This document shows positions 17,343 through 33,836 of a stretch of 64,000 nt of DNA, piece after piece. Every line of letters starts with the position of its first letter. The stretch's first letter is position 1. The DNA comes from Alteromonas sp. V450 (GTDB taxonomy: Bacteria; Pseudomonadota; Gammaproteobacteria; Enterobacterales; Alteromonadaceae): contig NZ_MODU01000004.1 of NCBI RefSeq assembly GCF_001885075.1, positions 3,968,001-4,032,000 of the forward strand, written 5' to 3'. The notes under the pieces were generated by a model. The model was not told the DNA's origin, did no database searches, and saw only the letters and a program-made list of their open reading frames with translations. The translations under genes and the position numbers were made by a program.

Positions 17343-19892
17343 ATGACTTCATTGGACTCAAAAACGCAAATTGTCGTCGTAGGCAACGGCATGGTGGGGC
17401 ATCATTTTGTTGAGCAGCTTCACCAAAGCGATGCCAATGTAGAAATAACCGTTTTATGCGGCGAGTCTCGCCTCGCGTACGACCGCGTTTATCTGTCATC
17501 TTTTTTTAGTGGCGCGAGTGCTGATGACTTAGCGCTTACTACACCCGCTCAGTACGCCGAATGGGGCGTAAACGTAGTCACCAATGCCTTGGTAACCGAT
17601 ATAGACCGTGACAATAATAAAGTGACGACGTCGGAAGGGCAGGTGTTTAGCTACGACAAGCTGGTGCTAGCCACGGGCTCGTACCCATTTGTGCCACCCA
17701 TCCCTGGCAACGACCAAGAGCATTGTTTGGTTTATCGCACCATAGACGATCTACTTGCCATTGAAGCGTCAGCAGCGGTGAGCAAAGTAGGTGTAGTTGT
17801 TGGTGGTGGGCTTTTAGGCTTAGAAGCCGCTAACGCACTAAAACAAGCCGGTCTAGACACCCACGTGGTAGAGTTTGCCCCGCAGCTTATGGCGGTGCAG
17901 CTAGACCAAGCTGGTGGTAACGTTCTTAAAGATAAAATCGAAGCATTGGGCGTAACGGTTCACACCCAAAAGGCCACCCAAACTATTGAGGCCGGTGATA
18001 CCTGCCGCTATAAAATGGTGTTTGCTGACGGCACTGCACTAGAAACCGACATGATTCTTTTCTCTGCTGGTATTCGACCTTCCGATCAGCTTGGCAGAAA
18101 GTCGGCACTAACACTGGGTGAGCGCGGCGGTATTGTCATTGATAACCATTGCGTAACGTCTGATCCAAACATTTACGCTGTGGGTGAATGTGCGCTGTGG
18201 GATAACAAAATCTTTGGCCTTGTTGCACCTGGTTATACCATGGCGCGCACGGCCGTAAGTCATATAACCGGCGGCGATGCCGAGTTCGCTGGCGCAGATA
18301 TGAGTACCAAACTCAAGCTAATGGGTGTGGAAGTGGGCTCAATTGGCGATGCGCATGAACGCACAGACGGAGCGCTTAGCTACACCTACTTAAATCAGCC
18401 CGAGGGCGTGTATAAAAAGCTGGTGGTAGATAGCGAGCAAAAGCATGTACTTGGTGCGGTCCTTGTAGGTGATACTGGTGACTACGACACGCTCCTACAG
18501 TATGCGCTTAATAATATCGAATTACCTGAACACCCAGAAAGCCTGATCCTACCATCATCTGATGCGGCACCAGCGTTAGGTGCCGATGCACTACCAGACA
18601 CCGCGTCTATTTGTTCATGCCTAAATGTGACAAAGGGCGATATTGTTTCAGCCATTGAAGGCGGCTGTTGTAGCGTTGGCGATGTAAAAGGCGAAACCAA
18701 AGCCAGCACAGGGTGTGGAGGTTGTGCTGCCTTACTTAAAAATGTTGTGGATAGCGAACTTGAAAAGCGCGGTGTGGAAGTATCAAAAGCCATTTGTGAG
18801 CACTTCAACCATACCCGACAAGAACTCTTTCACATTGTTAAGGTAAACGGCATTCGCACCTTTGACGAGCTACTAGAACAGCATGGTGAAGGTCTAGGGT
18901 GTGAAATTTGTAAGCCCGCTGTCGGCTCAATTTTAGCCTCGGTGTATAACGACTACATTCTTAAGTCTTCACATCTTCCACTACAAGACACCAACGATAT
19001 CTACCTTGGCAACATGCAAAAAGATGGCACGTATTCCGTTGTACCGCGTGTACCGGGCGGGGAAATTACGCCAGAAAAATTGATTCTGCTCGGCGAAGTA
19101 GCAAAAGAATACAACCTGTACACCAAGATCACAGGTGGCCAGCGCATTGATTTATTTGGAGCGCGCGTAGAGCACTTACCTGATATCTGGGAAAAACTGG
19201 TCGCTGGTGGTTTTGAAACCGGCCACGCCTACGCGAAGGCACTGCGTACTGTTAAATCCTGTGTGGGCAGCACCTGGTGCCGCTACGGTGTTCAGGATTC
19301 TGTTGGCACTGCCATTGATTTAGAGAATCGTTACAAAGGCTTACGTGCACCGCACAAAATTAAATTTGCGGTTTCGGGGTGTACCCGTGAGTGCGCAGAA
19401 GCCCAAAGCAAAGACATTGGCGTTATTGCTACCGAGCAAGGTTGGAACCTGTATGTTTGCGGGAATGGCGGCATGAAGCCGCGACATGCAGACCTGTTTG
19501 CCACCGACCTAGATACCGAAACCCTTATAAAGTACATCGACCGCGTGCTGATGTTTTACGTCAAAACGGCTGATCGCCTACAGCGCACATCGGTGTGGAT
19601 GGACAACTTAGAAGGTGGGTTAGCTTACTTGCAAGACGTTGTAATAAACGATGCTCTTGGCATTAATGATGAGCTTGAAGCACAGATGGATACGGTGGTT
19701 GATGCTTATCAGTGCGAATGGAAAACCACCATTGAAAACCCTGAGTCGCGCAAGCGTTTCCGTCAATTTGTAAACAGCGATGCTAGCGACACCAATATTC
19801 AGTTCGTTTCAGAGCGAGGCCAGGTTCGCCCAGCTACGGAAGCTGAAAAAGTAGCAGGTAAAGATCAGTTCATTCCTGTCTCTATGGTGTAG
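17343..19892 (+). CDS. nirB: Assimilatory nitrite reductase [NAD(P)H] large subunit
   Basis: This 849-aa cytoplasmic enzyme reduces nitrite to ammonium with NAD(P)H. An N-terminal FAD/NAD oxidoreductase half (about 1-400; VVGNGMVGHHF, then VVVGGGLLGLEAANAL) passes to a BFD-like [2Fe-2S] domain (CSCLNVTKG... CGGCAA, about 420-480). The sulfite/nitrite reductase repeats follow. The siroheme-[4Fe-4S] cysteines are in SCVGSTWCRYG and GCTRECAEAQ. ATG 17343 is chosen over an upstream TTG (17319), because AAGGGG precedes the ATG and the TTG lies in the terminator T run. It is the first gene of the nitrate assimilation unit. Confidence 0.96.
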   Translation: MTSLDSKTQIVVVGNGMVGHHFVEQLHQSDANVEITVLCGESRLAYDRVYLSSFFSGASADDLALTTPAQYAEWGVNVVTNALVTDIDRDNNKVTTSEGQVFSYDKLVLATGSYPFVPPIPGNDQEHCLVYRTIDDLLAIEASAAVSKVGVVVGGGLLGLEAANALKQAGLDTHVVEFAPQLMAVQLDQAGGNVLKDKIEALGVTVHTQKATQTIEAGDTCRYKMVFADGTALETDMILFSAGIRPSDQLGRKSALTLGERGGIVIDNHCVTSDPNIYAVGECALWDNKIFGLVAPGYTMARTAVSHITGGDAEFAGADMSTKLKLMGVEVGSIGDAHERTDGALSYTYLNQPEGVYKKLVVDSEQKHVLGAVLVGDTGDYDTLLQYALNNIELPEHPESLILPSSDAAPALGADALPDTASICSCLNVTKGDIVSAIEGGCCSVGDVKGETKASTGCGGCAALLKNVVDSELEKRGVEVSKAICEHFNHTRQELFHIVKVNGIRTFDELLEQHGEGLGCEICKPAVGSILASVYNDYILKSSHLPLQDTNDIYLGNMQKDGTYSVVPRVPGGEITPEKLILLGEVAKEYNLYTKITGGQRIDLFGARVEHLPDIWEKLVAGGFETGHAYAKALRTVKSCVGSTWCRYGVQDSVGTAIDLENRYKGLRAPHKIKFAVSGCTRECAEAQSKDIGVIATEQGWNLYVCGNGGMKPRHADLFATDLDTETLIKYIDRVLMFYVKTADRLQRTSVWMDNLEGGLAYLQDVVINDALGINDELEAQMDTVVDAYQCEWKTTIENPESRKRFRQFVNSDASDTNIQFVSERGQVRPATEAEKVAGKDQFIPVSMV

Positions 19893-19928
19893 CCATTGGC
19901 TTATCAACCTTGTTAGGAGAATCAAATT

Positions 19929-20300
19929 ATGTCAGCAGCGCAAAATGTAATGGCGTCAGAACCACAACAAGTGCAATGGCACTATGTTTGTGAGACGAAC
20001 GACTTAGTGACAAACAGTGGGGTTTGCGCCCTTGTCGACTCACAGCAAGTGGCAATTTTCAGTTTGAAGATAAACGGCGAAACCCAGGTTTTCGCCATTA
20101 GTAACTACGACCCTATTGGTAAAGCAAACGTACTCTATCGCGGGCTTCTAGGGTCGATAGGCGGTGCGCCTGTTGTCGCTTCGCCTTTATACAAAGAGCA
20201 TTACTTTCTAAAAACCGGGCTGTGTAAAGAACACGACGATGTTTCCGTCACGGCTTACGCTGTGAAGGTAGAGGGCGAAAAGGTTTTTGTCGGCGTTTAA
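19929..20300 (+). CDS. nirD: Nitrite reductase small subunit, Rieske-like
   Basis: This is a 123-aa NirD subunit with a Rieske-type beta fold. The residues that hold the Fe-S cluster in true Rieske proteins are missing: the pattern ends SPLYKEHYFLKTGLCKEHDD. This is normal for NirD, which lacks a complete CxH/CxxH pair set. It assists the NirB subunit. AGGAG lies upstream, and the gene follows nirB by 36 bp. Confidence 0.93.
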   Translation: MSAAQNVMASEPQQVQWHYVCETNDLVTNSGVCALVDSQQVAIFSLKINGETQVFAISNYDPIGKANVLYRGLLGSIGGAPVVASPLYKEHYFLKTGLCKEHDDVSVTAYAVKVEGEKVFVGV

Positions 20301-20386
20301 GAAAACTGCCTTTACTTGAACGCCCACATGAAAAAGCCTTCTAGCCAAATGCATTCAAAAGCTGTGAAATCGAAAAAGGTAATGAA

Positions 20387-23260
20387 ATGAATATGCCTAC
20401 ACGACAACCCGACATGATGTCTGAACAATTAAGACAAACAACATGCCCATACTGCGGCGTAGGGTGTGGTGTAGATATCAGTTGCAACGTAAGCAAGCGT
20501 GCCACAACCCTGGACACTGTTAAAGGCACGCCAGAGCATCCCGCCAATTTTGGAAGATTGTGTGTTAAAGGAACAAACCTGCTTGAAACAAACGACTTAA
20601 ACGGACGTTTGCTTCACCCAACCATGGCAGGTCAATCGGTGGATTGGGACACGGCCACCGATGTAATTGCGGATAAGATCACCTCTACCATTGCGCAGTA
20701 TGGCGCGGATGCCGTTGCTTTTTATGTATCAGGGCAGCTTCTTACCGAAGACTATTACATTGCCAACAAGTTTATGAAAGGTTATATCGGCAGTGCCAAT
20801 ATTGATACGAATTCACGCCTATGTATGTCATCAGCCGTTGCCGCCTACAAGCGCGCGTTCGGGGAAGACGTGGTGCCATGCGATTATTCCGATCTGGAAT
20901 GTACAGATTTATTGGTAATTACGGGAAGTAATACGGCCTGGGCGCACCCAGTGCTTTTTCAACGCATTCAGCGAGCAAAGCTGAAAAACCCTGATATGAA
21001 GGTCATTGTTGTTGACCCGCGCAAAACCGAAACCTGTACCATTGCCGATTTACACCTTCCATTAAAGCCAGGTAGCGACGTGGCGCTATTTAACGGCTTA
21101 CTCAGCTATGCAAACGCACAAGGTCGAATAGACAAATCCGCCGTTGAGGCCTATGCCGAGGGGCTTGATGAAACGCTCAGTAGTGCAAATGCTTTAACGT
21201 TAGACGACGTTGCTAAAGTATGCGACCTGGACATTAACAGCATTAAGGCCTTCTTTGATGCCTTCTGCAAAGCCTCTAGCGCAATTACTTTTTATTCTAT
21301 GGGCGTAAACCAGTCTTCTGCTGGTGTGGATAAAGCCCAAGCTATTATCAACTGTCACTTAGCTATGGATTTAATTGCTAAAGACGGTTGTGGCCCGTTT
21401 TCAATTACTGGCCAGCCCAATGCCATGGGAGGGCGTGAAGTCGGTGGGTTAGCCAATATGCTAGCTGCACATATGGACCTTGAAAACCCTGAGCATATCA
21501 GCGCTGTTAAAACCTATTGGAATGCCCCTGTTATGCCTAAAGGGCAGGGGCTTAAAGCTGTCGATTTGTTTAATGCAATTGAGAGTGGAAAGGTAAAATT
21601 CGTTTGGATAATGGGGACGAACCCTGTTGTCAGTATGCCAAATCGAGGTCAAGTTGAGCGCGCACTTTCAAAATGTGACATGGTTGTAGTGTCTGATATT
21701 GTTGAGTCCAACGATACACTTAACTACGCGCACATAGCCCTCCCTGCCACCGGTTGGTCGGAAAAAGACGGCACAGTGACTAACTCAGAGCGCCGTATTT
21801 CACGTCAGCGCGGTATATTGCCTCCACCAGGTAGTGCAAAACACGACTGGCAAATCATGTGCGAAGTGGCGGGTAAAATGGGCTTTGGCGAGGCATTTAA
21901 TTTTACCCATCCGTCACAAATATTCGTTGAATACGCTGGGCTAACCGGCTATCAAAATAACGGTAAGCGTCAGTTAGACCTGTCACCTTTACAAGCGTTA
22001 AGTGAAGCTCAGTACAATGGGCTATCGCCTTTGCAGTGGCCTTTTCAAACAGTTACAAAAGCTGAGAATACGGCCAATGCTAATTTTAAAACTAACCCTA
22101 GCCTTACCAGTAAACGTCCTTTTGAAGACAAACGATTTTCAACCCCTAGCGGCAAAGCTAAACTTATTCCCGTAGCTTACAAAGCGCCATTGCAGGTGAC
22201 ATCAGACGCTTATCCTTTTATTGTGAACAGCGGGCGAGCGCGAGATCAGTGGCATACCATGACGCGCACGGGTAAAGCGGCAAAGTTACTTGCTCATATG
22301 CCAAGTGCTAACGTGCATATTAACCCTAAAGACGCTGCTGCAATGGGCGTTGAAAACGGAGATCTTGTTTCTCTTTCAAGTGCAGTATCTAAAGACGCCC
22401 CTGTTATCTATCCGGTAAGAATAGATGCGGACATGCGAAAAAAAGAAGTATTCATTCCCATTCACTGGTCGGCGCAATGGGGGTCGCACAGTAAACTAGG
22501 CGCACTTTACGCCAGCGCGGTAGACCCTATTTCAGGGCAACCTGAGTTAAAACACGCGGCGGTTGCTATTGCGCCAGTTACTTTTACTACCTACGGTAAG
22601 CTCTTTGTTTCATCAGTAAACCCATCAGTACATAATTCAGAACTTAGTTCTTCATATGAAGACGCGCTAAAGCATGTATGTGACTACTGGAATACAACAC
22701 CGCTTGAAAGCACAGAGGTGTCTTCACCTGTAAATAACTCGGATGCAGCATTATCAGTATTGAATGTTGCTTCGAACAAAGGCCGTCGAGAGTTTGTACA
22801 ATCATTAATACCTCTTCTACCGCAAAACGCGGTGCTATTGCAGTTTCATCATCATACATACTCAGTATGCCTTGCGCTTGTCGATGACACTCTCTGTTTC
22901 GCTGCGTTTTTAGGCGATAAGCCGGAAAATACGACAAAAGCTTTGGCAGCACCACACCCAGAAAGTACGTGGTCAGTACCTAACGCATGGCTTGCCAGCC
23001 TCTTAAATACACCTATTTCGGTAGAGACTCAGCGCAACTTATTGCGAGGCCAAGTCGACGACGTATTTTTAAATGGTGACGTGGTTTGTAGCTGCTTTGA
23101 AGTACGAGAAAAGACCATAACAGATGCCATCAACGGCGGTTGTTCTACAGTAGCTAGCCTAGGAGAGCAGTTAAAGTGCGGTACCAACTGCGGCTCGTGC
23201 AAGCCCGCCTTGTCTCAGCTTATAGACAAGCATTTAGTCATTGAAACCCAATCTGTATAG
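20387..23260 (+). CDS. nasA: Assimilatory nitrate reductase catalytic subunit
   Basis: This is a 957-aa cytoplasmic molybdopterin enzyme that reduces nitrate to nitrite. The [4Fe-4S] motif TCPYCGVGCGVDI starts at about residue 17, with the fourth Cys in GRLCVKG. A molybdopterin oxidoreductase domain (about 60-560) and a dinucleotide-binding domain (about 600-715; VNSGRARDQWHTMTRTGK) follow. The last 60 residues form a BFD-like [2Fe-2S] domain (CSCFEVREKT, CGTNCGSCKPAL), as in the Klebsiella-type NasA. That domain accepts electrons from an NADH-oxidising partner. No separate nasB/nasC gene is present, so electron donation may come from another protein. Confidence 0.95.
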   Translation: MNMPTRQPDMMSEQLRQTTCPYCGVGCGVDISCNVSKRATTLDTVKGTPEHPANFGRLCVKGTNLLETNDLNGRLLHPTMAGQSVDWDTATDVIADKITSTIAQYGADAVAFYVSGQLLTEDYYIANKFMKGYIGSANIDTNSRLCMSSAVAAYKRAFGEDVVPCDYSDLECTDLLVITGSNTAWAHPVLFQRIQRAKLKNPDMKVIVVDPRKTETCTIADLHLPLKPGSDVALFNGLLSYANAQGRIDKSAVEAYAEGLDETLSSANALTLDDVAKVCDLDINSIKAFFDAFCKASSAITFYSMGVNQSSAGVDKAQAIINCHLAMDLIAKDGCGPFSITGQPNAMGGREVGGLANMLAAHMDLENPEHISAVKTYWNAPVMPKGQGLKAVDLFNAIESGKVKFVWIMGTNPVVSMPNRGQVERALSKCDMVVVSDIVESNDTLNYAHIALPATGWSEKDGTVTNSERRISRQRGILPPPGSAKHDWQIMCEVAGKMGFGEAFNFTHPSQIFVEYAGLTGYQNNGKRQLDLSPLQALSEAQYNGLSPLQWPFQTVTKAENTANANFKTNPSLTSKRPFEDKRFSTPSGKAKLIPVAYKAPLQVTSDAYPFIVNSGRARDQWHTMTRTGKAAKLLAHMPSANVHINPKDAAAMGVENGDLVSLSSAVSKDAPVIYPVRIDADMRKKEVFIPIHWSAQWGSHSKLGALYASAVDPISGQPELKHAAVAIAPVTFTTYGKLFVSSVNPSVHNSELSSSYEDALKHVCDYWNTTPLESTEVSSPVNNSDAALSVLNVASNKGRREFVQSLIPLLPQNAVLLQFHHHTYSVCLALVDDTLCFAAFLGDKPENTTKALAAPHPESTWSVPNAWLASLLNTPISVETQRNLLRGQVDDVFLNGDVVCSCFEVREKTITDAINGGCSTVASLGEQLKCGTNCGSCKPALSQLIDKHLVIETQSV

Positions 23261-23272
23261 GAGCGTTAAATT

Positions 23273-24256
23273 ATGTCAATTGCATCTAGTTGGTCGTTAC
23301 CGTTTTTGCGCACCTTATTTAAACCGCAGAAGTCTTTTCTTAATCTGTTTACTCGCAATGCTATTTCGGCGAGAACCTCGACTAAAACCACAAACCAGCG
23401 CTCTGCGAATGCTAAAACTTCATCTGAGCATTCGTACCTAGATAAGTGGTTGAAGTCAGCAACTAGACACAATGAATGTCGTAAAAAGGGACACGTGTAT
23501 ATCGTAGGTGCTGGCCCTGGCGATGCCGAGTTACTTACACTGAAAGCGCTTCGTCTATTACAACAAGCCGATGTCGTGCTTTTCGATGCTTTAGTAAGTG
23601 AAGATATTCTTGCGCTAATTCCCTCTAAAGTGGTGAAAGAGTATGTAGGGAAGCGCTGCAAAAAGCACAGCTTTACTCAGGATGCTATTTGCAAACGCGT
23701 CGTTGAATTGGCAAGTGAAGGGCATACTGTCGTGCGGTTAAAAGGTGGTGATCCCGCCCTATTTGCAAGAACTTGCGAAGAAACTGATGCGCTAACAAAA
23801 GCCCACATCCCTTTTGCTATTGTTCCTGGTATTACGGCGGCATCGGGTGTGTCTGCCTATACGGGGATCCCATTAACAGACAGGCGCTGCGCTCAGTCGG
23901 TAAGCTTTATGACCGCACATTTTAAAGACGCGAACCAATGGCCTGAAATGGCGACTATGGCACAAAATGTGTTGAAGCAAACCATGGTAGTTTATATGGG
24001 GCTTAGCCGACTAGAAGGGTTATGCAAAGGCTTGGTTCACAATAAAGTGCCGAACTCATGGCCCGTAGCGGCAATTGAAAATGCTACGTCTCCCGAACAG
24101 CGCGTAATTACTGGCGTGCTTGCCGATATTTATAGCAAAGTTAACGCTGCAAATTTGACAGGGCCTACGTTACTTATATTTGGAAAAGTGGTAGAGTCTC
24201 GCCAACAAGTAAACACTCTTCTACTACATTCATCCGAGCATGCAGCAACCATTTAG
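23273..24256 (+). CDS. cobA: Uroporphyrinogen-III C-methyltransferase (siroheme branch)
   Basis: This 327-aa SAM-dependent methyltransferase makes precorrin-2 for siroheme, the cofactor of NirB. The catalytic domain begins near residue 74 with VYIVGAGPGDAELLTLKAL and includes VVRLKGGDPALFAR and the VPGITAASGVSAYTGIPLTDR loop. The first ~73 residues are an unusual Ser/Thr/Lys/Arg-rich extension not found in typical SUMT proteins. It is retained because AGGAG precedes this start. Its stop overlaps the next gene by 17 bp. The ferrochelatase and dehydrogenase activities of CysG are absent here. Confidence 0.93.
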   Translation: MSIASSWSLPFLRTLFKPQKSFLNLFTRNAISARTSTKTTNQRSANAKTSSEHSYLDKWLKSATRHNECRKKGHVYIVGAGPGDAELLTLKALRLLQQADVVLFDALVSEDILALIPSKVVKEYVGKRCKKHSFTQDAICKRVVELASEGHTVVRLKGGDPALFARTCEETDALTKAHIPFAIVPGITAASGVSAYTGIPLTDRRCAQSVSFMTAHFKDANQWPEMATMAQNVLKQTMVVYMGLSRLEGLCKGLVHNKVPNSWPVAAIENATSPEQRVITGVLADIYSKVNAANLTGPTLLIFGKVVESRQQVNTLLLHSSEHAATI

Positions 24257-25229
24257 CGACTACATAAAAATTATTGGTAAGGGCCAAAAAGGAGGGCGTA
24301 GCCTCACCCGCGATGAAGCTTACCATGCCATGAAAATGGTGTTGGCCAACGAAGTGACGGGCGATCAACGCGGTGCATTTCTCATGCTGCTTCGTACCCG
24401 TGAAGAAACGCCAGAAGAAGTTATTGGCTTTGTCGATGCGTGCAGAGAGCTGATAGAGCCAGAGGTAAAAACACTCACTCCTACAATAGATATTGGCTGC
24501 TACGCCGGAAAACGTCGCCAGTTACCGTGGTACTTATTGGCTGTAGCGGTACTGGCCAACAATGGTTATTCCGTTATGCTTCACGGTGCCCATGAACCGG
24601 GGTCGGGGCGCCTTTACGCTAGTATAGCGCTGCCTAAATTAGGCCTTCCTGAGGTGAACAGCATCAGTGACGCAAAGCAGCAGCTGGCAGAAAAGGGCGT
24701 TACCTATCTCGACTTGTCTTATTTACTGCCTGCTCTCGATACGATTATTAAACTTCGCGAGGTCTTTGGCCTGCGTTCATGCGCAAACACGCTTGCAAGG
24801 TTGCTGAACCCCACCGCAGCGCGATATTGTGTACAAGGGGTTTACCATATGCACCTTGACCATAAACACTGCCGCGTTAATGAAAATTATCCTTCTATCG
24901 ATGCGCTTTGTTTTCGTGGGGATGGAGGAGACCCTGAAGTAAACGGTGAGCGAGAGACCGAACTTTTCATTACCCGAAATGGTAAGACTGAAGAAGTGAT
25001 TATGCCTGTGGTAGCAGATAAGTGGGCGCTTAAAGACAAAGACATGAATATAGACGATATGCTTGATGTTTGGGCGGGTAACGCAAGTAGCCTCTACGGT
25101 GAGCAGGCTATCTTAAGCACACTTGCCAGCTATTTAGTATTTCTACAACGCTGTGATGTTGCAGATGCCTTATCGCTAGCACGACAGCTTTGGGCACAGC
25201 GAGATAAAACGGCAACACCATTTTCATAG
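24240..25229 (+). CDS. TrpD2/YbiB-like protein (anthranilate phosphoribosyltransferase fold)
   Basis: This 329-aa protein has the nucleoside phosphorylase class-III/TrpD fold. An N-terminal helical domain (about 5-75; RSLTRDEAYHAMKMVL) is followed by the alpha/beta domain with VMLHGAHEPGSGR in place of the PRPP-binding GTGGD loop. It resembles YbiB/TrpD2, a TrpD homologue reported to bind nucleic acid instead of making tryptophan. The degenerate glycine loop argues against anthranilate phosphoribosyltransferase activity. It overlaps cobA by 17 bp, so it is translated with the nitrate genes. Its role there is unknown. Confidence 0.8.
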   Translation: MQQPFSDYIKIIGKGQKGGRSLTRDEAYHAMKMVLANEVTGDQRGAFLMLLRTREETPEEVIGFVDACRELIEPEVKTLTPTIDIGCYAGKRRQLPWYLLAVAVLANNGYSVMLHGAHEPGSGRLYASIALPKLGLPEVNSISDAKQQLAEKGVTYLDLSYLLPALDTIIKLREVFGLRSCANTLARLLNPTAARYCVQGVYHMHLDHKHCRVNENYPSIDALCFRGDGGDPEVNGERETELFITRNGKTEEVIMPVVADKWALKDKDMNIDDMLDVWAGNASSLYGEQAILSTLASYLVFLQRCDVADALSLARQLWAQRDKTATPFS

Positions 25230-25373
25230 GCAATCGCCTACGCGAACGGGTATGACGTAATTATATCTAAACACTTCTGGTAAGACCTTCGCGCATTTTT
25301 CTGGGCACTACATTGACATATTCACAGTGATGCATGTTAATGAACGTAACACGTCACTGCTCACCCTACATTT

Positions 25374-26885
25374 ATGTGGCAATTATTTAGGTGTCTTCTT
25401 TTTTTAAGTATCTCCTTCGCAGGGTTGACGAAAGAAGCAACCCTGTTACAAGATGGCGATGATATTGCGTCAAAGGTTACCTTTGTGTTTACTGCTGATA
25501 TGCCCAATATTAGCGATCCCATCACAGGTCGATATGCGAATTTACACACGTTATTAGATGAAGTTCGAGGGCAGTACAGCCCCGTATTTTTCATTTTTGG
25601 CGGAGGGTCAATAGGGCCTAGCGCAATGTCTTCTTTTGATCGTGGATCGCATATCATCGATTTACTCAATACCATTGAACCCGATGTAATGGGAGTAACA
25701 AAGCGAGAGTTCAGCTTCTATGAGAATGAACTTTCTCTTCGCTCGTTCGAAGCCGCCTTTCCTATCGTAGCAAGTAATGTGGCCACCAAGCGCCAAGGTA
25801 ATGCTCTAGAAGGGCTGTATAAATCTATTGTGGTAGAAAAACAGGGTGCATCGGTCGGTATTATCTCCGTGTTACATGAAAGAGTTATTGAGGAGTATCA
25901 GCTAACCGATATTGCTATCGACTCTCCACTGCAAACTATTTATCAAGAAGCAAAATCATTACGACGCAATGGAGCACAGTTCGTGCTTTTGCACTATTCG
26001 TATCCATTCGCATTTGTGAATAATTTGCTAGACCAGGGTGTGATAGACGCAGCATTTATATCTGATAGTCGGCTTGATGCAGTATTGCTTGAAAGTCATG
26101 CACGGCATGAAAATAGTATGGCACTCACCCAGCAAGGCTCAGCCCTTGTCGCCACCTTCGAAAAAAAGGTGATGTGGGAAAATACGCATACTAAAGAACA
26201 CGATTTATCACGCTTTTTGCCTAATGAAACGGTTATTTCTCAGGTGGCCGATTATGAAGCCAGACTTCAACGCCTTTTAAATATAAAAATAGGAGAATGG
26301 AAGTCGAATACGTCAACCATGCGTAATCAAGTCAGACGCGGTGAAAATGGGTTTGCGAACTTTATTGTTGATACATTAAGGACACATACAAAAGCAGATG
26401 TTGCGCTATTAAACGGCGGGAGTATCAGAGGCGATAAACGATACACAGCCGGTGAGCCAATCACACGGCAAGATATTATAGTAGAAATGCCATTCAGAGC
26501 ACATGCCGTTACGTTGGGGGTAAGTGGTGAGCAATTGATGATAGCGCTAGAAGAAGGGCTTGCGCAGTATGAACATACTAAGGGTGGGTTTCCCCATGTT
26601 TCTGGTATGTCGTACACCTTTGACTCTACCGCCAAACCTTTTGAGCGAGTGCGCGACGTCTTCATCGGTGCAAAACGTCTTCAAAAAGACAAGCTGTATA
26701 CAATCGCCACGAGCGACTTTTTAGCAAACGGCGGTGATGGGTATTATTCCCTAAAAAATGCTGAGCAGCGTTTTCCCGTAAACACCCGGCCTCCTCAAAT
26801 TGCTGAGCTTGTAATGCAAGCGGTAGGAAACCAATTTACTGTTAAAGCAACGACAGACGGACGAATACGCGATGTCTCAAAGTGA
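25374..26885 (+). CDS. Degenerate UshA/5'-nucleotidase-like exported protein
   Basis: This 503-aa protein has a short Sec signal peptide (about 1-19). The overall order matches UshA-type 5'-nucleotidases: metallophosphatase domain (about 30-275), then the substrate-binding C-terminal domain (about 310-495). The C-terminal part is well kept (NGGSIRGD, DFLANGGDGY). The N-terminal metal ligands are not. DxH(H/G) reads TADMPNIS, the GD motif reads FGGGSIGPS, GNHEFD reads VTKREFSF, and no GHTH-like His pair is visible. It therefore probably binds a nucleotide-like ligand without hydrolysing it. Its end overlaps the start of a membrane diguanylate cyclase by 14 bp, hinting at a periplasmic sensor role. 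Confidence 0.82.
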   Translation: MWQLFRCLLFLSISFAGLTKEATLLQDGDDIASKVTFVFTADMPNISDPITGRYANLHTLLDEVRGQYSPVFFIFGGGSIGPSAMSSFDRGSHIIDLLNTIEPDVMGVTKREFSFYENELSLRSFEAAFPIVASNVATKRQGNALEGLYKSIVVEKQGASVGIISVLHERVIEEYQLTDIAIDSPLQTIYQEAKSLRRNGAQFVLLHYSYPFAFVNNLLDQGVIDAAFISDSRLDAVLLESHARHENSMALTQQGSALVATFEKKVMWENTHTKEHDLSRFLPNETVISQVADYEARLQRLLNIKIGEWKSNTSTMRNQVRRGENGFANFIVDTLRTHTKADVALLNGGSIRGDKRYTAGEPITRQDIIVEMPFRAHAVTLGVSGEQLMIALEEGLAQYEHTKGGFPHVSGMSYTFDSTAKPFERVRDVFIGAKRLQKDKLYTIATSDFLANGGDGYYSLKNAEQRFPVNTRPPQIAELVMQAVGNQFTVKATTDGRIRDVSK

Positions 26886-28506
26886 GCCAATGACAGCGCA
26901 CAAAAACAACAAGACGTTGTACCTTTTCATCACTGCTCAGACCGTAGTGGTAGGCTCGTTTCTTTTCGTTTTACTGGCATCGTTATTGCGGTTGAACGAT
27001 ACGCGCCTAGTTCTCGATGAAATATCATCCTCTTCTATTCCCGCGCTTTCGCAGGCCACGTCGATAACCAGAGATGTACAGCATCTTATCTCTTTGACGT
27101 CTCGTCTTACCACCTCGGAAAATAACGCCTCTCGTCTTATTATTAAAAATCGCATTGACGATACGATAAAAGGGTTAGACACCACAAAACTGAAGTTAGA
27201 TCAGGGCGGGCGCTATCTCGCCACGCAGTTGAGTGTTCTGATGCTCGAGATTGAAGAGCTTAACGAACTTGTAGAGTTGCGCATAAACACTGAAAAAGAG
27301 GTAAATACAAACCAAGCACTTCTTTTCGCTTATTTTAACGACTTTTTTGCACATACGGTTTTTAAGGGGGAAAACGCCAAGTACGCACAATTAACCGTAC
27401 CATTACTTTTGCAAATAGCCCAAATTAATCAACAGGTAAAATTGTTCAGGTTGAGACAGCTAGAAAGTAGCATCGAAAGAAATATAGCCTTGCTAAAAAC
27501 GCAGCCATTTTTCGACGACAACCATCGTCAATTCATAACGACAATGCGTGAAATTGTGCTTGGAAGCGATGGAATGGTTGAAAAACAAGCCAGCGCCATG
27601 CGTATTCGCGGGCGTTCAATAGGGAGAGGGAGTTTTGTAGAGAATTTGGCTGAGGATATAGCCTCAAGTATCGAGTTTAAAGCAACGTTAGTGACCGAAG
27701 AAACCTATGACCATGCTATAACGGCTAATAGACATGTTACCAATCAGGTTTGGTTGTCGCTGGGGCTTTCGATTATCGCGTTATTTGTTTGTTGTGCCAT
27801 CATTTGGTTTATTTACAAAAAGATAATTCTCAGATTAATCACACTGACAACGCTGGTAGAGAGAGGGAGCCACAAGCTAGATACCTTTAAAGGGCAGGAT
27901 GAAATTTCACGGCTTGCAAGCACGTTTGCAATGTACATGGAAAAAGTAGAGGCGCAAGAAAAGAGATTGATTCAGTTATCGTTGAGTGATCCGCTTACGG
28001 GTATACCTAATCGTCGAGCGTTTGAACGAGAAGCTGAAAAAGGAATAGCGCTGGCAAAAAGGCAAACTTGGCCGCTGACATTGGTTTTGCTCGATGTTGA
28101 TAATTTTAAACTGTACAACGATTACTACGGACACACTCAAGGAGACTCATGTCTTAAATCAGTGGCTAAAAAACTTAAAAGCGTTGTATCGCGTGACACC
28201 GACTTTTGTGCGCGCTACGGGGGGGAAGAGTTTGTTGTATTGCTGCAAAATACCAATGCAGAAGGCGCTAAGGTTAAAGCTGAAGAGATCCGGCAAGCAA
28301 TAGAATCACTCGGCCTCGCGCACAGTAAAAGTGATGTCTCGCCTTTCGTCACTGCCAGCTTAGGCGCCGCAACATTCTTTTTGGAGCATTATGATAATGT
28401 GTCGCTCAGTAGTTTGTTGGATTGCGCAGATGAAGCGCTCTATCACGCCAAACGTTCGGGAAGAAATCGCTGCAGTTATTCAGTTTCATCAATACCGAAA
28501 GCCTGA
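26872..28506 (+). CDS. Membrane-bound GGDEF diguanylate cyclase
   Basis: This is a 544-aa protein. Transmembrane helices at about 18-40 and 300-322 bracket a periplasmic, mostly helical sensor region (about 41-299). A short HAMP-like linker with coiled coil (about 325-370) leads to the GGDEF domain (about 380-540). The active site is GGEEF, and RDTD five residues before it is a product-inhibition I-site. So c-di-GMP synthesis with feedback control is expected. No EAL domain is present. Its start overlaps the pseudo-UshA gene, which suggests that the two periplasmic domains work together. Confidence 0.92.
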   Translation: MSQSEPMTAHKNNKTLYLFITAQTVVVGSFLFVLLASLLRLNDTRLVLDEISSSSIPALSQATSITRDVQHLISLTSRLTTSENNASRLIIKNRIDDTIKGLDTTKLKLDQGGRYLATQLSVLMLEIEELNELVELRINTEKEVNTNQALLFAYFNDFFAHTVFKGENAKYAQLTVPLLLQIAQINQQVKLFRLRQLESSIERNIALLKTQPFFDDNHRQFITTMREIVLGSDGMVEKQASAMRIRGRSIGRGSFVENLAEDIASSIEFKATLVTEETYDHAITANRHVTNQVWLSLGLSIIALFVCCAIIWFIYKKIILRLITLTTLVERGSHKLDTFKGQDEISRLASTFAMYMEKVEAQEKRLIQLSLSDPLTGIPNRRAFEREAEKGIALAKRQTWPLTLVLLDVDNFKLYNDYYGHTQGDSCLKSVAKKLKSVVSRDTDFCARYGGEEFVVLLQNTNAEGAKVKAEEIRQAIESLGLAHSKSDVSPFVTASLGAATFFLEHYDNVSLSSLLDCADEALYHAKRSGRNRCSYSVSSIPKA

Positions 28507-28644
28507 TCCGCGGCATTAATCAACGCGACGACTTTCTGATTTAACTAATATTTTTTGAAACCTCTGCTATCTTTATTCTCAAAAGTAAAAAAGTATTCTA
28601 TACGCGAAGGTTATTTGCTCAAGCGGTTGCATCAGGAGTGCAAG

Positions 28645-29961
28645 ATGTTTTTCAAAGATAAAGAAATGATTGCTGAAAACGAAAGGTTAAAAAAAGAGTT
28701 AGCCGCTTATCAGACAGTTCAAGAAGAGCTGAGAGAAGAGATGCTGTTCTTTGAACTGGCAGCCGATGGACGTATCCGCGGTTTGAACGACCTGTGCTCC
28801 CAAGCGTTAGGTTATAAAGAAAACGATGTAAATGGTAAAACGTTAGATAGCTTAATGCCGCCAAGTGCACTAAAAAAGTCTGACGTACAAGACATGTTGG
28901 GAGCAATAAAAACCCATCGTCATTGGCACGGCGCTGTAAGCTTTTTAAATGCAAAAGGCGAAGAAGTATGGGTACGTGGTATTTTGCAGCCTGTAGATGA
29001 CACTTTTGGCAACGTTAATTACATTTCTTTTTACATGGCAGAACAAACAAGGAACATAACCTACAGCAATGAATTAAGGGATATGATTTCTGCCCTGCAT
29101 CGCTCTTCTGCCGTAATCGAATTTAATTTGGATGGTACTATCATTAAAGCCAATGATAATTTCCTTAAAGGCATGGGTTATTCGCAAGAGCAAATTGTGG
29201 GTAAACATCACCGTATATTCTGTACCAGTGAAGAAGCGAACTCTGAAAAATATCAACAGTTTTGGCGTGACCTAGCGCAAGGTAAACTTGAATCAGGTCG
29301 GTTTAAGCGAGTAGATAGCCGCGGCAATGATGTGTGGTTAGAAGCTTCTTACAATCCCATCCGCAATGAAGACGGCGTACTTTACAAGGTAGTAAAATTT
29401 GCAACGGTTATTACCGAGCAAATGGAGAGAGAGTTTGCTATTTCTGAAGCGGCGAATGTTGCGTTTAACATTTCGCAAGAAACCGGTGAACAAGCCAGAA
29501 AGGGAAACGAGGTGCTTGACGCTACCGTAAACGCAATGAACGAACTCACCACTCAAATGGGTAACGCGAGTGCAGGTATCAAGGACCTTGATGAGCAGTC
29601 GCAGAAAGTAGCAGACTTGGTGAAAAGCATCAGTGGAATAGCCGACCAGACTAATTTGCTTGCCTTAAATGCAGCAATAGAAGCAGCGCGTGCAGGTGAT
29701 CAAGGTCGAGGTTTCGCGGTCGTTGCTGATGAAGTACGCCAACTTGCGTCGAGAACGAGTAGTGCAACTGAAGAAATTGTTAACGTGGTAGTAGAAAACA
29801 GAAAGCTAACTGAGAATGCAGTGCAACTTATTGAAGCAGGGCAAGAAAAAGCCAGAGAAGCGCTAGAGTATTCGACTGAGTCCGGTAGGGCGATGAATGA
29901 AATTCAAAAAGGTGCAAACGAGGTAGTTAACGCCATTGGGCAGTTTACCAAACGGCTGTAA
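28645..29961 (+). CDS. PAS-PAS soluble methyl-accepting chemotaxis protein
   Basis: This is a 438-aa cytoplasmic chemoreceptor without membrane helices. A short coiled coil (about 5-28) precedes PAS 1 (about 30-145) and PAS 2 (about 150-265; [15 protein letters not shown]). A methyl-accepting signalling hairpin follows, with the near-invariant tip [25 protein letters not shown] sets the ATG at 28645; the longer reading from a TTG at 28555 has no ribosome site. The PAS domains could sense redox or a ligand such as FAD or haem; none can be chosen from sequence. It is the last gene before the terminator at 29987. Confidence 0.9.
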
Positions 29962-29986
29962 ATACCTAAATCGACGATATCTCGAA

Positions 29987-30027
29987 GGGGGCGCTACGCA
30001 CCACAGTTGAACAGCCCCCCCTTTTTT
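29987..30027 (+). terminator. Terminator ending the nirB-chemoreceptor unit
   Basis: GGGGGCGCT pairs with AGCCCCCCC (30013-30021) with one bulged C, followed by six T. Confidence 0.8.
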
Positions 30028-30046
30028 GGTGCACATTAAGACATGC
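30026..30046 (+). promoter_or_regulatory. NtrC-like half-site upstream of nrtA
   Basis: TTGGTGCA (30026-30033) carries the strong NtrC half-site and overlaps a second weak dyad, TGCACATTAAGACATGC (30030-30046). The half-site lies 78 bp upstream of the -24 GG, similar to the 65 bp seen at nirB. Confidence 0.4.
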
Positions 30047-30109
30047 TTAACATAACCATTTCTTTGCCGTAAAACGATAACCTTATGAATTAAAAGGTTT
30101 TTGTTTTTT

Positions 30110-30125
30110 TGGCACAAAGGGTGCT
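30110..30125 (+). promoter_or_regulatory. Sigma-54-like promoter of nrtA
   Basis: TGGCACAAAGGGTGCT has the diagnostic GG (30111-30112), exactly ten bases, then GC (30123-30124). The inferred start near 30136 gives a leader of about 310 nt. The remainder of 29962-30449 holds the preceding terminator and this promoter/leader; no small ORF looks real. Confidence 0.6.
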
Positions 30126-30348
30126 AACTACAATGTATAGTGGGCGCTCCTGCGTACCACTCACCCATTGCAAGACATATGAAATGGTGATGCTTGGAGA
30201 GCGTAAGGAAACACAAAAATCTCCAATTCTTCCAATAGGTGCATAATAATAAAAAATTGTGGTTTTATGAGCTATCGCTTTTTATAAACCTCCTTAAAGA
30301 TGAGGTATGTGAGTGGGATAAACCTACTTGCAACTAACAACTTGTGCG

Positions 30349-30373
30349 TTTGTAATTACTCCGATGTTACAAA
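30349..30373 (+). promoter_or_regulatory. RNA hairpin in the nrtA leader (candidate ANTAR target)
   Basis: TTTGTAA (30349-30355) pairs with TTACAAA (30367-30373). Its loop contains CTCCG, also found in the loop of the first nirB leader hairpin. A weaker stem, AGTGGG-ATAAA-CCTACT, lies upstream at 30312-30328, so a hairpin pair precedes the terminator here too. Confidence 0.5.
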
Positions 30374-30375
30374 CA

Positions 30376-30432
30376 CGGCAACGAAGCCCACTAGCGCAGA
30401 CACTTTGTGTCAACGCCAGTGGGTTTTTTTTT
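30376..30432 (+). terminator. Leader attenuator terminator before nrtA
   Basis: CCCACT (30387-30392) pairs with AGTGGG (30418-30423), with inner stems GCG/CGC and GACAC/GTGTC, followed by nine T. It ends 17 bp before the nrtA ATG. GGCAACGAAGCCC just before and within the 5' arm is identical to the motif in the nirB leader. Confidence 0.87.
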
Positions 30433-30449
30433 GGCTACGAGGAACACGT

Positions 30450-31859
30450 ATGACTGGATTAAAAAGAACATCAATATTAAAACGCCTACAGGTGGTGAGT
30501 AAGAGTGTGTGTGCGGCGTTAGTGGTTTCGGTTGCAACGTTTTCAACGTCGGCAATGGCACAACAACAAACCGTTGGCTGGCCTGAAAAAGAAGAATTAA
30601 AGTTTGGTTTTATAAAACTGACAGATATGGCGCCGCTTGCTGTAGCGTACGAAAAAGGTTTTTTCGAAGACGAAGGGTTATACGTCACATTAGAAGCGCA
30701 AGCTAACTGGAAAGTGCTGCTAGACAGGGTTATTGATGGTCAGCTAGATGGTGCTCACATGCTTGCAGGTCAACCACTTGGCGCGACAATTGGCTTTGGT
30801 ACGGAATCTCATGTAGTTACCGCGTTTAGTATGGATCTAAATGGTAATGGCATTACAGTCTCGAACGAAATTTGGGACAAAATGAAGGCGCACATTCCAC
30901 AAGAAAATGGCAAGCCTGTGCATCCCATTAAGGCTGATTACCTAAAGCCGGTTGTTGATGAATACCGCAACGCCGGGAAACCTTTCAATATGGGCATGGT
31001 ATTTCCTGTATCTACTCACAACTACGAGCTGCGCTATTGGCTAGCAGCAGGTGGCATTCACCCAGGGTACTACGCGCCTCACAAGGGGGATACTGCAGGT
31101 CAAATCGATGCACAAGCACTATTGTCTGTAACGCCACCACCACAAATGCCAGCGACCATGGAAGCGGGCACTATTTATGGCTATTGCGTAGGTGAGCCAT
31201 GGAACCAGCAAGCGGTATTTAAAGGTATTGGTGTACCTGTGATCACCGATTATGAAATCTGGAAAAACAACCCAGAAAAAGTATTTGGCGTAAGCCAAGG
31301 CTGGGCTGAAAAGTACCCTAATACTCACATTCGTGTGGTTAAAGCATTAATTCGTGCAGCAATGTGGCTGGATGAAAATGACAATGCTAACCGCCCTGAA
31401 GCAGTAAAAATTCTTGCCAAGAGCAACTACGTTGGCGCAGACGAAGATGTACTGGCTAACAGCATGACAGGGACTTTTGAGTACGAAAAAGGCGACAAGC
31501 GTGAAGTACCAGATTTCAACGTATTCTTCCGCTACAACGCCACTTACCCGTATTACAGTGATGCAATTTGGTACCTTACTCAAATGCGTCGTTGGGGCCA
31601 AATTTCTGAAGCTAAATCTGACGATTGGTACAAGGAAACCGCGAAAAAAGTATACAAGCCAGAGGTTTATGCTCAGGCGGCAAAAGCGCTAATAGCAGAG
31701 GGTAAAGCAAAAGCATCTGATTTCCCTGAGTTTGGAACGGAAACGGGTTATAAACCTCCTCAGAGTGAATTTATTGACGGTGTGACGTTTGATGGAAGCA
31801 AACCGAACGCTTACTTAGAGCAGTTCGACATTGGTCTTAAAGGCGACACTGTACTGTAA
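30450..31859 (+). CDS. nrtA: Nitrate ABC transporter substrate-binding protein
   Basis: This is a 469-aa periplasmic nitrate-binding protein of the NrtA/NasF/CmpA family. A signal peptide of about 37 residues ends at SAMA. The mature protein begins with the family-typical [20 protein letters not shown], then [19 protein letters not shown], and later [12 protein letters not shown], which lines the anion pocket. The start at 30450 follows CGAGGA. The longer frame from 30300 would read through the attenuator terminator. It heads the nrtABC-porin unit. A GC-rich hairpin after it probably raises its level over the membrane parts. Confidence 0.94.
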
Positions 31860-31874
31860 GTGTCTTGTAGAACA

Positions 31875-31904
31875 GCCCCGCCGTTGCCTTTGTGAAGGCG
31901 GGGC
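31875..31904 (+). promoter_or_regulatory. Intercistronic GC-rich hairpin between nrtA and nrtB
   Basis: GCCCCGCC pairs with GGCGGGGC across a 14-nt loop, 16 bp after the nrtA stop, without a T run. Such elements after binding-protein genes commonly stabilise the upstream message or partly reduce read-through. Confidence 0.6.
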
Positions 31905-31948
31905 ACTTACACAGCGCATTAGCGCATACAAAGAGTCAGGAGCAAGCA

Positions 31949-32944
31949 ATGAGCAAGATGACAACCATTCTTCGCCTTCCATCATCGCCGTCAAACGCCA
32001 ACTCTGTGTTGAGCCGTTTATATCAATCCATGCCTGCGTTGCTGTTGCCCGTTATCGGCTTGCTAATGTTCTTGGCCATTTGGAATGGCGTTGCAAAGAG
32101 TATCGACACGTCGTTAGGGCAGTTTCCAGGGCCTGCACAGGTTTTTGAGCAAGCAGGTGCCTTATTGGATGAGCACGTTGCTCAGCGTGAGAAAGCGGAC
32201 GCTTTCTATCAACGTCAAGAAGAAAGAAATGCAGCGCGTGTAGCGCAAGACCCTACATACCAGCCTAAAATTAGAGAGTTTACAGGGGCGCCTACTTTCT
32301 TCGACCAAATATGGACAAGCCTCTACACTGTCATGGTTGGCTTTTTTATCGCGTCAGTAGTGGCAGTGCCTGTGGGTATTTTATGTGGTTTAAGCAAATC
32401 GGCATACACAGCGATAAACCCGCTTATTCAGTTATTTAAGCCAGTTTCACCGCTAGCATGGTTGCCGTTAGTTACTATGGTGGTTAGTGCGCTTTATGTC
32501 AGTGACGACCCAGCTTTTTCTAAGTCCTTTGTAACGTCTGCCTTTACCGTTTCACTTTGCTGCTTGTGGCCAACGCTAATAAATACCGCGGTGGGCGTAT
32601 CAAACATTGAAAAAGACCTCATCAATGTGAGTAAAGTGCTGCGTCTTACCCCTTTTGCACACCTGACCAAGATAGTACTGCCGTCTTCTATTCCCATGAT
32701 TTTTACCGGACTTAGATTGTCCCTTGGTATTGGCTGGATGGTACTCATCGCTGCCGAAATGCTTGCTCAAAACCCTGGTTTAGGAAAATTTGTATGGGAC
32801 GAATTTCAAAACGGAAGTTCAGAGTCATTAGCCAGGATCATGGTTGCAGTGCTTACTATTGGGGCAATTGGTTTTGTTCTTGACCGCTTAATGCTATCAA
32901 TTCAGCGCGCGGTTAGCTGGGATAAGTCGAGCGTATTACGCTAA
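31949..32944 (+). CDS. nrtB: Nitrate ABC transporter permease
   Basis: This is a 331-aa inner-membrane permease. A first helix lies at about 28-46, followed by a charged loop (about 60-115). The permease domain (about 125-325) carries the coupling element EMLAQNPGLGKFVWDEFQNG, typical of nitrate/sulfonate/taurine permeases. ATG 31949 is chosen because AGGAG precedes it; the in-frame reading from 31892 adds 19 residues with no ribosome site. It lies between nrtA and the ATPase gene. Confidence 0.92.
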   Translation: MSKMTTILRLPSSPSNANSVLSRLYQSMPALLLPVIGLLMFLAIWNGVAKSIDTSLGQFPGPAQVFEQAGALLDEHVAQREKADAFYQRQEERNAARVAQDPTYQPKIREFTGAPTFFDQIWTSLYTVMVGFFIASVVAVPVGILCGLSKSAYTAINPLIQLFKPVSPLAWLPLVTMVVSALYVSDDPAFSKSFVTSAFTVSLCCLWPTLINTAVGVSNIEKDLINVSKVLRLTPFAHLTKIVLPSSIPMIFTGLRLSLGIGWMVLIAAEMLAQNPGLGKFVWDEFQNGSSESLARIMVAVLTIGAIGFVLDRLMLSIQRAVSWDKSSVLR

Positions 32945-32960
32945 TTTTGAGGAGAAATTT

Positions 32961-33836
32961 ATGCACACTAAACACTTAGAGTTAGAGCAGGTAGGTATCG
33001 ACTTCCCAACACCGAAAGGGCCATTTACTGCGCTTCAAGATGTAAATCTTAAAATTAGCAAAGGTGAATTTGTATCACTAATTGGTCACTCGGGTTGCGG
33101 TAAATCGACGGTTTTGAACATCATTGCCGGCTTGCACCAAGCAACTACAGGCGGTGTTATTTTAGATGGTGCTGAAGTAAAACAGCCTGGGCCAGAGCGC
33201 GCCGTAGTGTTTCAAAACCACTCTTTGCTGCCTTGGCTTACGGTATATAAAAATGTAGAGCTGGCCGTGAAATCGACCATGCGGGGCAAGAGTAAAAGCG
33301 AGATGCGTGACTGGATAATGCATAACTTAGAGCTTGTACACATGACCCACGCTCTCGACAAACTGCCTAGTGAAATTTCAGGTGGTATGAAGCAGCGAGT
33401 GGGCATTGCGCGCGCGCTGGCTATGGAACCTAAAGTACTATTGATGGACGAACCGTTCGGTGCACTAGACGCGTTAACGCGCGCTCACCTTCAAGACTCA
33501 CTAATGGAAATTCATGCTGATTTGGGTAATACCGTCATCATGATAACGCATGATGTGGATGAGGCCGTTTTACTATCTGATCGCATTGTTATGATGAACA
33601 ATGGTCCTGCAGCCACCATCGGCGAAATCTTGGATATTGAATTGCCGCGTCCACGAGACAGGTTGGCACTTGCAGACAATAAACAATACAACCACTACCG
33701 ACATGAGGTATTAACCTTCCTTTACGATAAGCAGAAAAAGGTTGAAACCGTTACTTCACGTACTAACAACGGAACATCAAAATCCAGCGGGGTGACATCT
33801 GAAAAAAAAGACGCTAAAAAATCAGATGCTGCCTAG
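32961..33836 (+). CDS. nrtC: Nitrate ABC transporter ATP-binding protein
   Basis: This is a 291-aa ATPase. Walker A is GHSGCGKST, Q-loop VFQNHSLLPWL, signature ISGGMKQR, Walker B VLLMDEPFGALDALT and switch His ITHDVDEA. It resembles NrtD/NasD. It lacks the extra substrate-binding-like C-terminal domain of cyanobacterial NrtC, so the gene symbol is approximate. The last 45 residues are Lys/Ser/Thr-rich. It starts 16 bp after nrtB behind GAGGAG. Confidence 0.9.
   Translation: MHTKHLELEQVGIDFPTPKGPFTALQDVNLKISKGEFVSLIGHSGCGKSTVLNIIAGLHQATTGGVILDGAEVKQPGPERAVVFQNHSLLPWLTVYKNVELAVKSTMRGKSKSEMRDWIMHNLELVHMTHALDKLPSEISGGMKQRVGIARALAMEPKVLLMDEPFGALDALTRAHLQDSLMEIHADLGNTVIMITHDVDEAVLLSDRIVMMNNGPAATIGEILDIELPRPRDRLALADNKQYNHYRHEVLTFLYDKQKKVETVTSRTNNGTSKSSGVTSEKKDAKKSDAA

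Follow-up and report, generated by a model that had tools for sequence, protein, structure and literature searches.

The 64,000-nt stretch of Alteromonas sp. V450 DNA analysed here (the window) carries two adjacent genes on the + strand whose products, in our preferred reading, form a single receptor. A dead 5'-nucleotidase of the UshA type (pseudo-UshA) would have been recruited as a solute-binding protein, and its ligand-driven hinge closure would be read by the TorS-like sensor of a membrane diguanylate cyclase, setting the synthesis of c-di-GMP. We assign this reading a probability of about 0.6. It draws on the conservation of pseudo-UshA, the pairing of the two genes across many genomes and the exchange of the output domain behind a common sensor.

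Two adjacent genes encode a 5'-nucleotidase-fold protein and a membrane GGDEF protein

The two open reading frames are present as described in the first-pass annotation. The first (25374-26885) encodes a periplasmic 5'-nucleotidase-fold protein of 503 aa, pseudo-UshA. A probable Sec signal peptide at about residues 1-22 (25374-25439) is indicated by a hydrophobic helix at residues 2-16 and a low-confidence linker at residues 24-28, and TM prediction gave no TM segment besides the signal-peptide helix. The sole Pfam match is the nucleotide-binding domain 5_nucleotid_C (PF02872, E 1.5e-35; residues 313-459, 26310-26750); the metallophosphatase model PF00149 did not match the protein in this search. 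The AF2 model of pseudo-UshA (pLDDT 93, pTM 0.86) was best matched by Foldseek, over its whole length, to the 5'-nucleotidases 2z1a (E 3.6e-38) and 3ive (E 1.5e-37).

The second gene (26872-28506, alternative start 26890) encodes a protein of 544 aa which, in agreement with the first-pass annotation, has the features of a membrane GGDEF enzyme with a large periplasmic sensor. TM helices at residues 18-36 and 293-311 delimit a periplasmic part of about 255 residues (~37-292), and the all-helical TorS-like sensor was placed at residues 40-300 (26989-27771). The Pfam match of the protein is GGDEF (E 6.8e-47; 27985-28470), and the GGDEF fold in the AF2 model (pLDDT 88.7) matches WspR with a VIA Z of 28. 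The GGEEF active site (28219-28233) is invariant in 72/72 cyclase homologues and an RxxD I-site is present as RDTD at residues 441-444 (28192-28203). The protein is thus predicted to be a diguanylate cyclase in which both the GGEEF motif and the I-site are intact.

The 14-bp overlap of the two genes reported earlier presupposes that the cyclase starts at ATG 26872. A second in-frame ATG is found at 26890, four bases past the pseudo-UshA stop codon; orthologous cyclases mostly begin near this stop and ATG 26890 is closer to their starts than 26872. The exact overlap is therefore uncertain, but tight coupling of the two genes is likely whichever start is used.

Pseudo-UshA has lost the catalytic residues and kept the nucleotide site

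The motifs of pseudo-UshA were compared with those of 13 canonical UshA-type proteins of the same order by profile-profile alignment. The DxH motif of UshA corresponds to D42-M-P44 in the window protein, within a degenerate metal motif I (TADMP, residues 40-44, 25491-25505) in which His43 of UshA is replaced by Pro. The GGD motif corresponds to GGG78, within a degenerate metal motif II (FGGGSIGPS, residues 75-83, 25596-25622) in which Gly replaces the metal-bridging Asp. In the degenerate motif III (TKREFS, residues 109-114, 25698-25715), which aligns with GNHEFD, Lys stands for Asn116 and Arg for the catalytic His117. The GGHSQ motif is lost and ISDSR is found instead. The window protein consequently lacks equivalents of UshA His43, Asp84, Asn116, His117 and His252. 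This alignment and the unmatched PF00149 model bear out the earlier observation that the metallophosphatase motifs are replaced.

Conservation was then scored over 76 homologues. A check for orthologues with intact metal ligands, suggested in the first-pass annotation, returned none: a His was present in none of the 76 homologues at the position of His43 or at that of His117 (residue 111), an Asp was found at the position of Asp84 in five, and an Asn at that of Asn116 in one. The substitutes are conserved, G77 and P82 being invariant and K110 and R111 being present in 66/76 and 73/76 homologues, respectively. The replacement motifs GGGSxGPS and KREFS are likewise maintained among the homologues and the N-domain loops 73-130 are highly conserved. 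His117 is shared by UshA and CpdB; in CpdB, a relative of the same architecture, this residue is essential for 3'-AMP hydrolysis and the H117A variant is essentially inactive (PMC7922932). Loss of the catalytic residues in pseudo-UshA is well supported by these comparisons. In the tree, the pseudo-UshA proteins form a separate, long-stemmed clade with respect to UshA and CD73 5'-nucleotidases; the nearest named relative in it is Alteromonas portus. No further PF02872 protein was found in the window genome.

The C-domain motifs, which had also been noted as kept, are present in the window protein (R321, N347-G-G-S-I-R352, PF374, F449 and GGD455). Residues R321, E324, N347, G349, R352, P373, G453, G454 and D455 are invariant (76/76) in homologues that share 32-57% identity with the window protein. 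Positions 374 and 449 are aromatic in all 76, either Phe or Tyr; in UshA, Phe429 and Phe498 sandwich the base (PMC7922932). UshA Asn431 is not kept. Since the metal and catalytic residues are gone and both the replacements and the C-domain site are conserved, the pattern is that expected of a protein that no longer cuts and still binds. The two conserved positive charges at the old metal site suggest that the terminal phosphate is held there by side chains.

Pseudo-UshA and the cyclase form a patchy two-gene cassette

Pseudo-UshA orthologues were found in 12/36 listed genomes of the genus, including that of the window, and in 37/196 genomes of the family. A GGDEF gene directly follows pseudo-UshA on the same strand in 47/47 neighbourhoods, that of the window included. 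A scan of 84,980 species genomes yielded 154 relatives, and 80 loci were kept for the neighbourhood count; the cyclase lies directly downstream in 79 of them, the exception being L190. These loci belong to Alteromonas, Paraglaciecola, Glaciecola, Rheinheimera, Arsukibacterium, Marinomonas, Nitrincola, Psychrosphaera, Pseudoalteromonas and other genera. When the 196 family genomes were searched independently with the sensor domain, exactly the 37 genomes carrying pseudo-UshA were recovered and no genome was discordant. Co-conservation of the pair, for which a check had been proposed, was thus observed both as adjacency and as common presence. A class-wide search with a strict cut-off retrieved the window genome only among 368 sampled genomes, which is a sampling effect.

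The genes flanking the pair differ between lineages and just the pair is conserved, so its conservation does not reflect inherited gene order. Combined, these data make the pairing of pseudo-UshA with the cyclase well supported and define a patchy two-gene cassette. Covariation between the two proteins (MI-APC, 90 distinct pairs, effective number ~69) placed 48 of the top 100 residue pairs in the sensor, where 49 were expected. There was no sensor excess among the top 100-200 pairs, and the weak excess among the top 500-1000 may only mirror the higher column entropy of the sensor. At the Nitrincola loci L184, L185, L187 and L188, a second GGDEF-containing gene is found after the cyclase, ~1.6-2.6 kb downstream of the pseudo-nucleotidase.

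The periplasmic sensor is related by profile to that of TorS and is found with two kinds of output

At L190, from a Desulfobulbaceae MAG, the pseudo-nucleotidase gene lies 12 bases upstream of a gene for a hybrid histidine kinase of 1147 aa. The periplasmic region of this kinase is matched over its whole length by the profile of the cyclase sensor (E 5e-29). A phylum-wide sensor search revealed a second such arrangement (G986, locus L257), in which the pseudo-nucleotidase is encoded beside a 1179-aa hybrid kinase with a sensor match of E 2e-24. A kinase output accompanies pseudo-UshA at these two loci only; their pseudo-nucleotidases group in the tree (95/43) on long branches, a grouping that does not establish a single origin. 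As both kinases carry the same helical sensor, the pseudo-enzyme appears to follow the sensor and not the GGDEF output. That the output domain changes and the association of pseudo-enzyme with sensor persists is the best non-experimental evidence of contact between these two, and we infer that pseudo-UshA may bind the sensor physically.

The sensor profile was aligned by hhalign to TorS sensor domains with probabilities of 94.6 (local) and 96.6 (global) and an E of 7e-8 or lower; the controls, the 4HB_MCP chemoreceptor domain and a reversed TorS profile, gave about 1% or less. The Pfam model TorS_sensor_domain (PF21689) is matched by 8/38 sensor members, with a best E of 2.9e-6, and the window sensor sequence alone has no Pfam match. 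A PDB sequence search with the sensor gave TorS structures as best matches (3i9y, E 3.3e-4), an unrelated coiled coil scoring similarly, and the Foldseek and VIA lists for the full-length cyclase contained GGDEF-type structures only. By profile comparison, then, the cyclase sensor and the TorS sensor are distantly related. The known partner of TorS is TorT, a periplasmic binding protein that controls it. A hybrid histidine kinase of another pseudomonadotal genome (G755, L258:5478-8645) has a weak, partial match to the cyclase sensor (2.8e-12); pseudo-UshA was not found in this genome, so the TorS-like sensor family also exists without it.

The pair is kept or lost as a unit and lies in a diverged block

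In the closest Alteromonas, the pair lies within a nitrate-assimilation cluster, where its neighbours are a trpD2-like gene on one side and a PAS chemoreceptor gene on the other. In the window (17343-33836), the pair interrupts a run of nirBD-like genes, nasA, a cobA-like uroporphyrin methyltransferase gene and the trpD2-like gene, and is followed by the PAS chemoreceptor gene and an nrtABC-like transporter. The chemoreceptor-like gene (28555-29961), which in the closest relatives comes immediately after the cyclase gene, encodes PAS and MCP signalling domains and no TM helix; its start is uncertain, TTG 28555 being the called start and ATG 28645 a possible one. Placement in the nitrate cluster is common to close Alteromonas only. 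A functional link to the nitrate genes was considered and rejected, because nitrate-assimilation flanks occur in the closest Alteromonas only and other flanks are found elsewhere.

When the window is compared with L039, the products of the flanking genes trpD2 and nasA show 96-97% identity and the fourfold sites of these genes 80-88%, whereas the pair reaches 57-58% identity and 28-31% at fourfold sites. With respect to L038 and L039, the whole segment 25374-29961, comprising the pair and the PAS chemoreceptor gene, is near-saturated at fourfold sites and the flanking proteins are 95-97% identical. This difference at fourfold sites between the pair and its flanks suggests that the block was replaced by a diverged allele through recombination, which fits better than fast evolution in place.

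Among close relatives, the pair is intact at L286, reduced by decay to remnants of the two genes at L285 and L287, and absent at L288 and L289, where a gap of 197-250 bp is found. The pseudo-UshA and cyclase genes are thus kept or lost together at the same locus. The remnants span L287:6164-8001 and L285:7217-8001; at L287, sequence has been deleted so that the middle of the pseudo-nucleotidase is fused, behind a frame disruption, to the cyclase's HAMP/GGDEF part.

A proposed mechanism and its alternatives

In the proposed receptor, pseudo-UshA would be the periplasmic ligand-binding protein. Judging from the conserved residues, this ligand is probably a nucleoside or nucleotide; it would most likely be bound in the C-domain with its base between F374 and F449, the ribose on D455 and phosphates on R317, R321 and R352. 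In UshA, ligand binding is followed by a large hinge rotation (PMC8071527). A hinge closure of this type would carry the ligand into what was once the active site; there the conserved K110 and R111 would replace the metals, and the ligand would be held and not hydrolysed. Pseudo-UshA, in its open or its closed form, would then dock on the neighbouring cyclase at its TorS-like helical sensor, and the signal would pass via TM2 and a HAMP-like linker to the GGDEF output, hence to c-di-GMP. The ligand may turn the cyclase on or off.

Ligands of other kinds bound by the PF02872 domain, or no ligand, are possible. Two alternatives are more probable than the others. According to the first, pseudo-UshA signals through the cyclase in response to a ligand that is neither a nucleotide nor a nucleoside, such as a phosphorylated sugar or inorganic phosphate. 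UshA acts on UDP-sugars and CDP-alcohols (PMC8071527), so its pocket accepts larger ligands, and the loss of Asn431 from pseudo-UshA would suit such a change; the retention of both aromatic sandwich positions and of D455 argues instead for a base and a ribose, and we consider this alternative unlikely. Next comes a role as cyclase partner or inhibitor that requires no small-molecule ligand, as in YfiR/YfiN: pseudo-UshA would keep the sensor in a single state until envelope, redox or surface-contact cues led to its release, and the nucleotide site would be a structural relic. All the pairing evidence fits this arrangement equally well. However, ligand-site residues that are invariant at 32-57% identity would be needless in a relic and the TorS-like sensor suggests a binding-protein partner, which leaves this explanation improbable too.

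It is far less probable that the protein remains enzymatically active with a remodelled catalytic site, the operon tying the breakdown of extracellular nucleotides to c-di-GMP without direct contact between the products. Some metallophosphoesterases tolerate altered ligands and the N-domain loops 73-130 are still highly conserved, but the five metal-site and catalytic equivalents are all absent from the window protein, and plain metabolic linkage leaves unexplained why the family tracks the sensor whether the output is a kinase or a cyclase. A chance neighbourhood of two unrelated genes in this lineage has nothing in its favour and is refuted by their co-occurrence, namely 79/80 loci drawn from many genera and differing in their flanks, and an identical presence in 37/196 genomes.

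Beyond the receptor of the window, there is roughly an even chance that the dead 5'-nucleotidase represents a new class of periplasmic binding protein, reporting extracellular nucleotides or nucleosides via TorS-like sensors to interchangeable outputs (c-di-GMP and the two phosphorelays). Because cyclases and kinases alike occur beside the same pseudo-enzyme, ordinary domain exchange would be a way to test the signalling logic.

Significance and comparison with known systems

No published description of a pseudo-UshA/cyclase pair was found in the open-licence literature. A 2022 review of c-di-GMP inputs names, as means of sensing nucleotides, degenerate GGDEF and cNMP-binding domains, and its main text mentions neither nucleotidase nor UshA (PMC8846402). 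Receptors triggered by a binding protein are known, their partners coming from recognised solute-binding families; the Pfam list of an SBP census includes neither PF02872 nor PF00149, so that pseudo-UshA, with PF02872 as its only match, falls outside the listed families (PMC9602780). A binding protein of this kind therefore appears to be undescribed for that role. A dead enzyme recruited as binding partner would show a route by which such receptors can arise. With c-di-GMP as a messenger of lifestyle switching, the pair is a direct candidate for sensing extracellular nucleotides, for instance from dying plankton or biofilm DNA, in marine Alteromonadaceae, Marinomonas, Rheinheimera and Nitrincola and, if the reading is true, would constitute a modular bacterial receptor for environmental nucleotides.

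Pseudo-UshA shares with UshA and CD73 the two-domain fold and the nucleotide-binding residues of the C-domain; unlike them, it lacks the di-metal centre and the catalytic His and Asn, and is almost always encoded beside a receptor gene. In the YfiBNR system, the periplasmic YfiR is encoded next to the membrane diguanylate cyclase YfiN and controls it. The likeness to the pair is one of architecture only, as YfiR is small and unrelated and the sensor of YfiN is different. In NspS-MbaA, which senses polyamines in Vibrio, a periplasmic ligand-binding protein controls a membrane c-di-GMP enzyme (PMC8967002, PMC5646818), an arrangement like that proposed here, with protein relatedness compared for the GGDEF domain only; NspS is, however, a conventional periplasmic binding protein and MbaA is a bifunctional c-di-GMP enzyme. 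The TorT-TorS system also combines a two-lobed periplasmic binding partner with a membrane protein carrying an all-helical sensor, and the sensors are homologous by profile. It differs from the pair in its partner, TorT being a PBP and pseudo-UshA a dead 5'-nucleotidase (PF02872), and in its output, which is a histidine kinase in TorS and GGDEF in the window receptor as in 79/80 loci; a TorS-like hybrid-kinase output is found at both L190 and L257. The hinge and the two lobes of UshA-type proteins resemble those of such binding proteins. The parallel is a strong one: the same kind of sensor would be served by a different binding protein.
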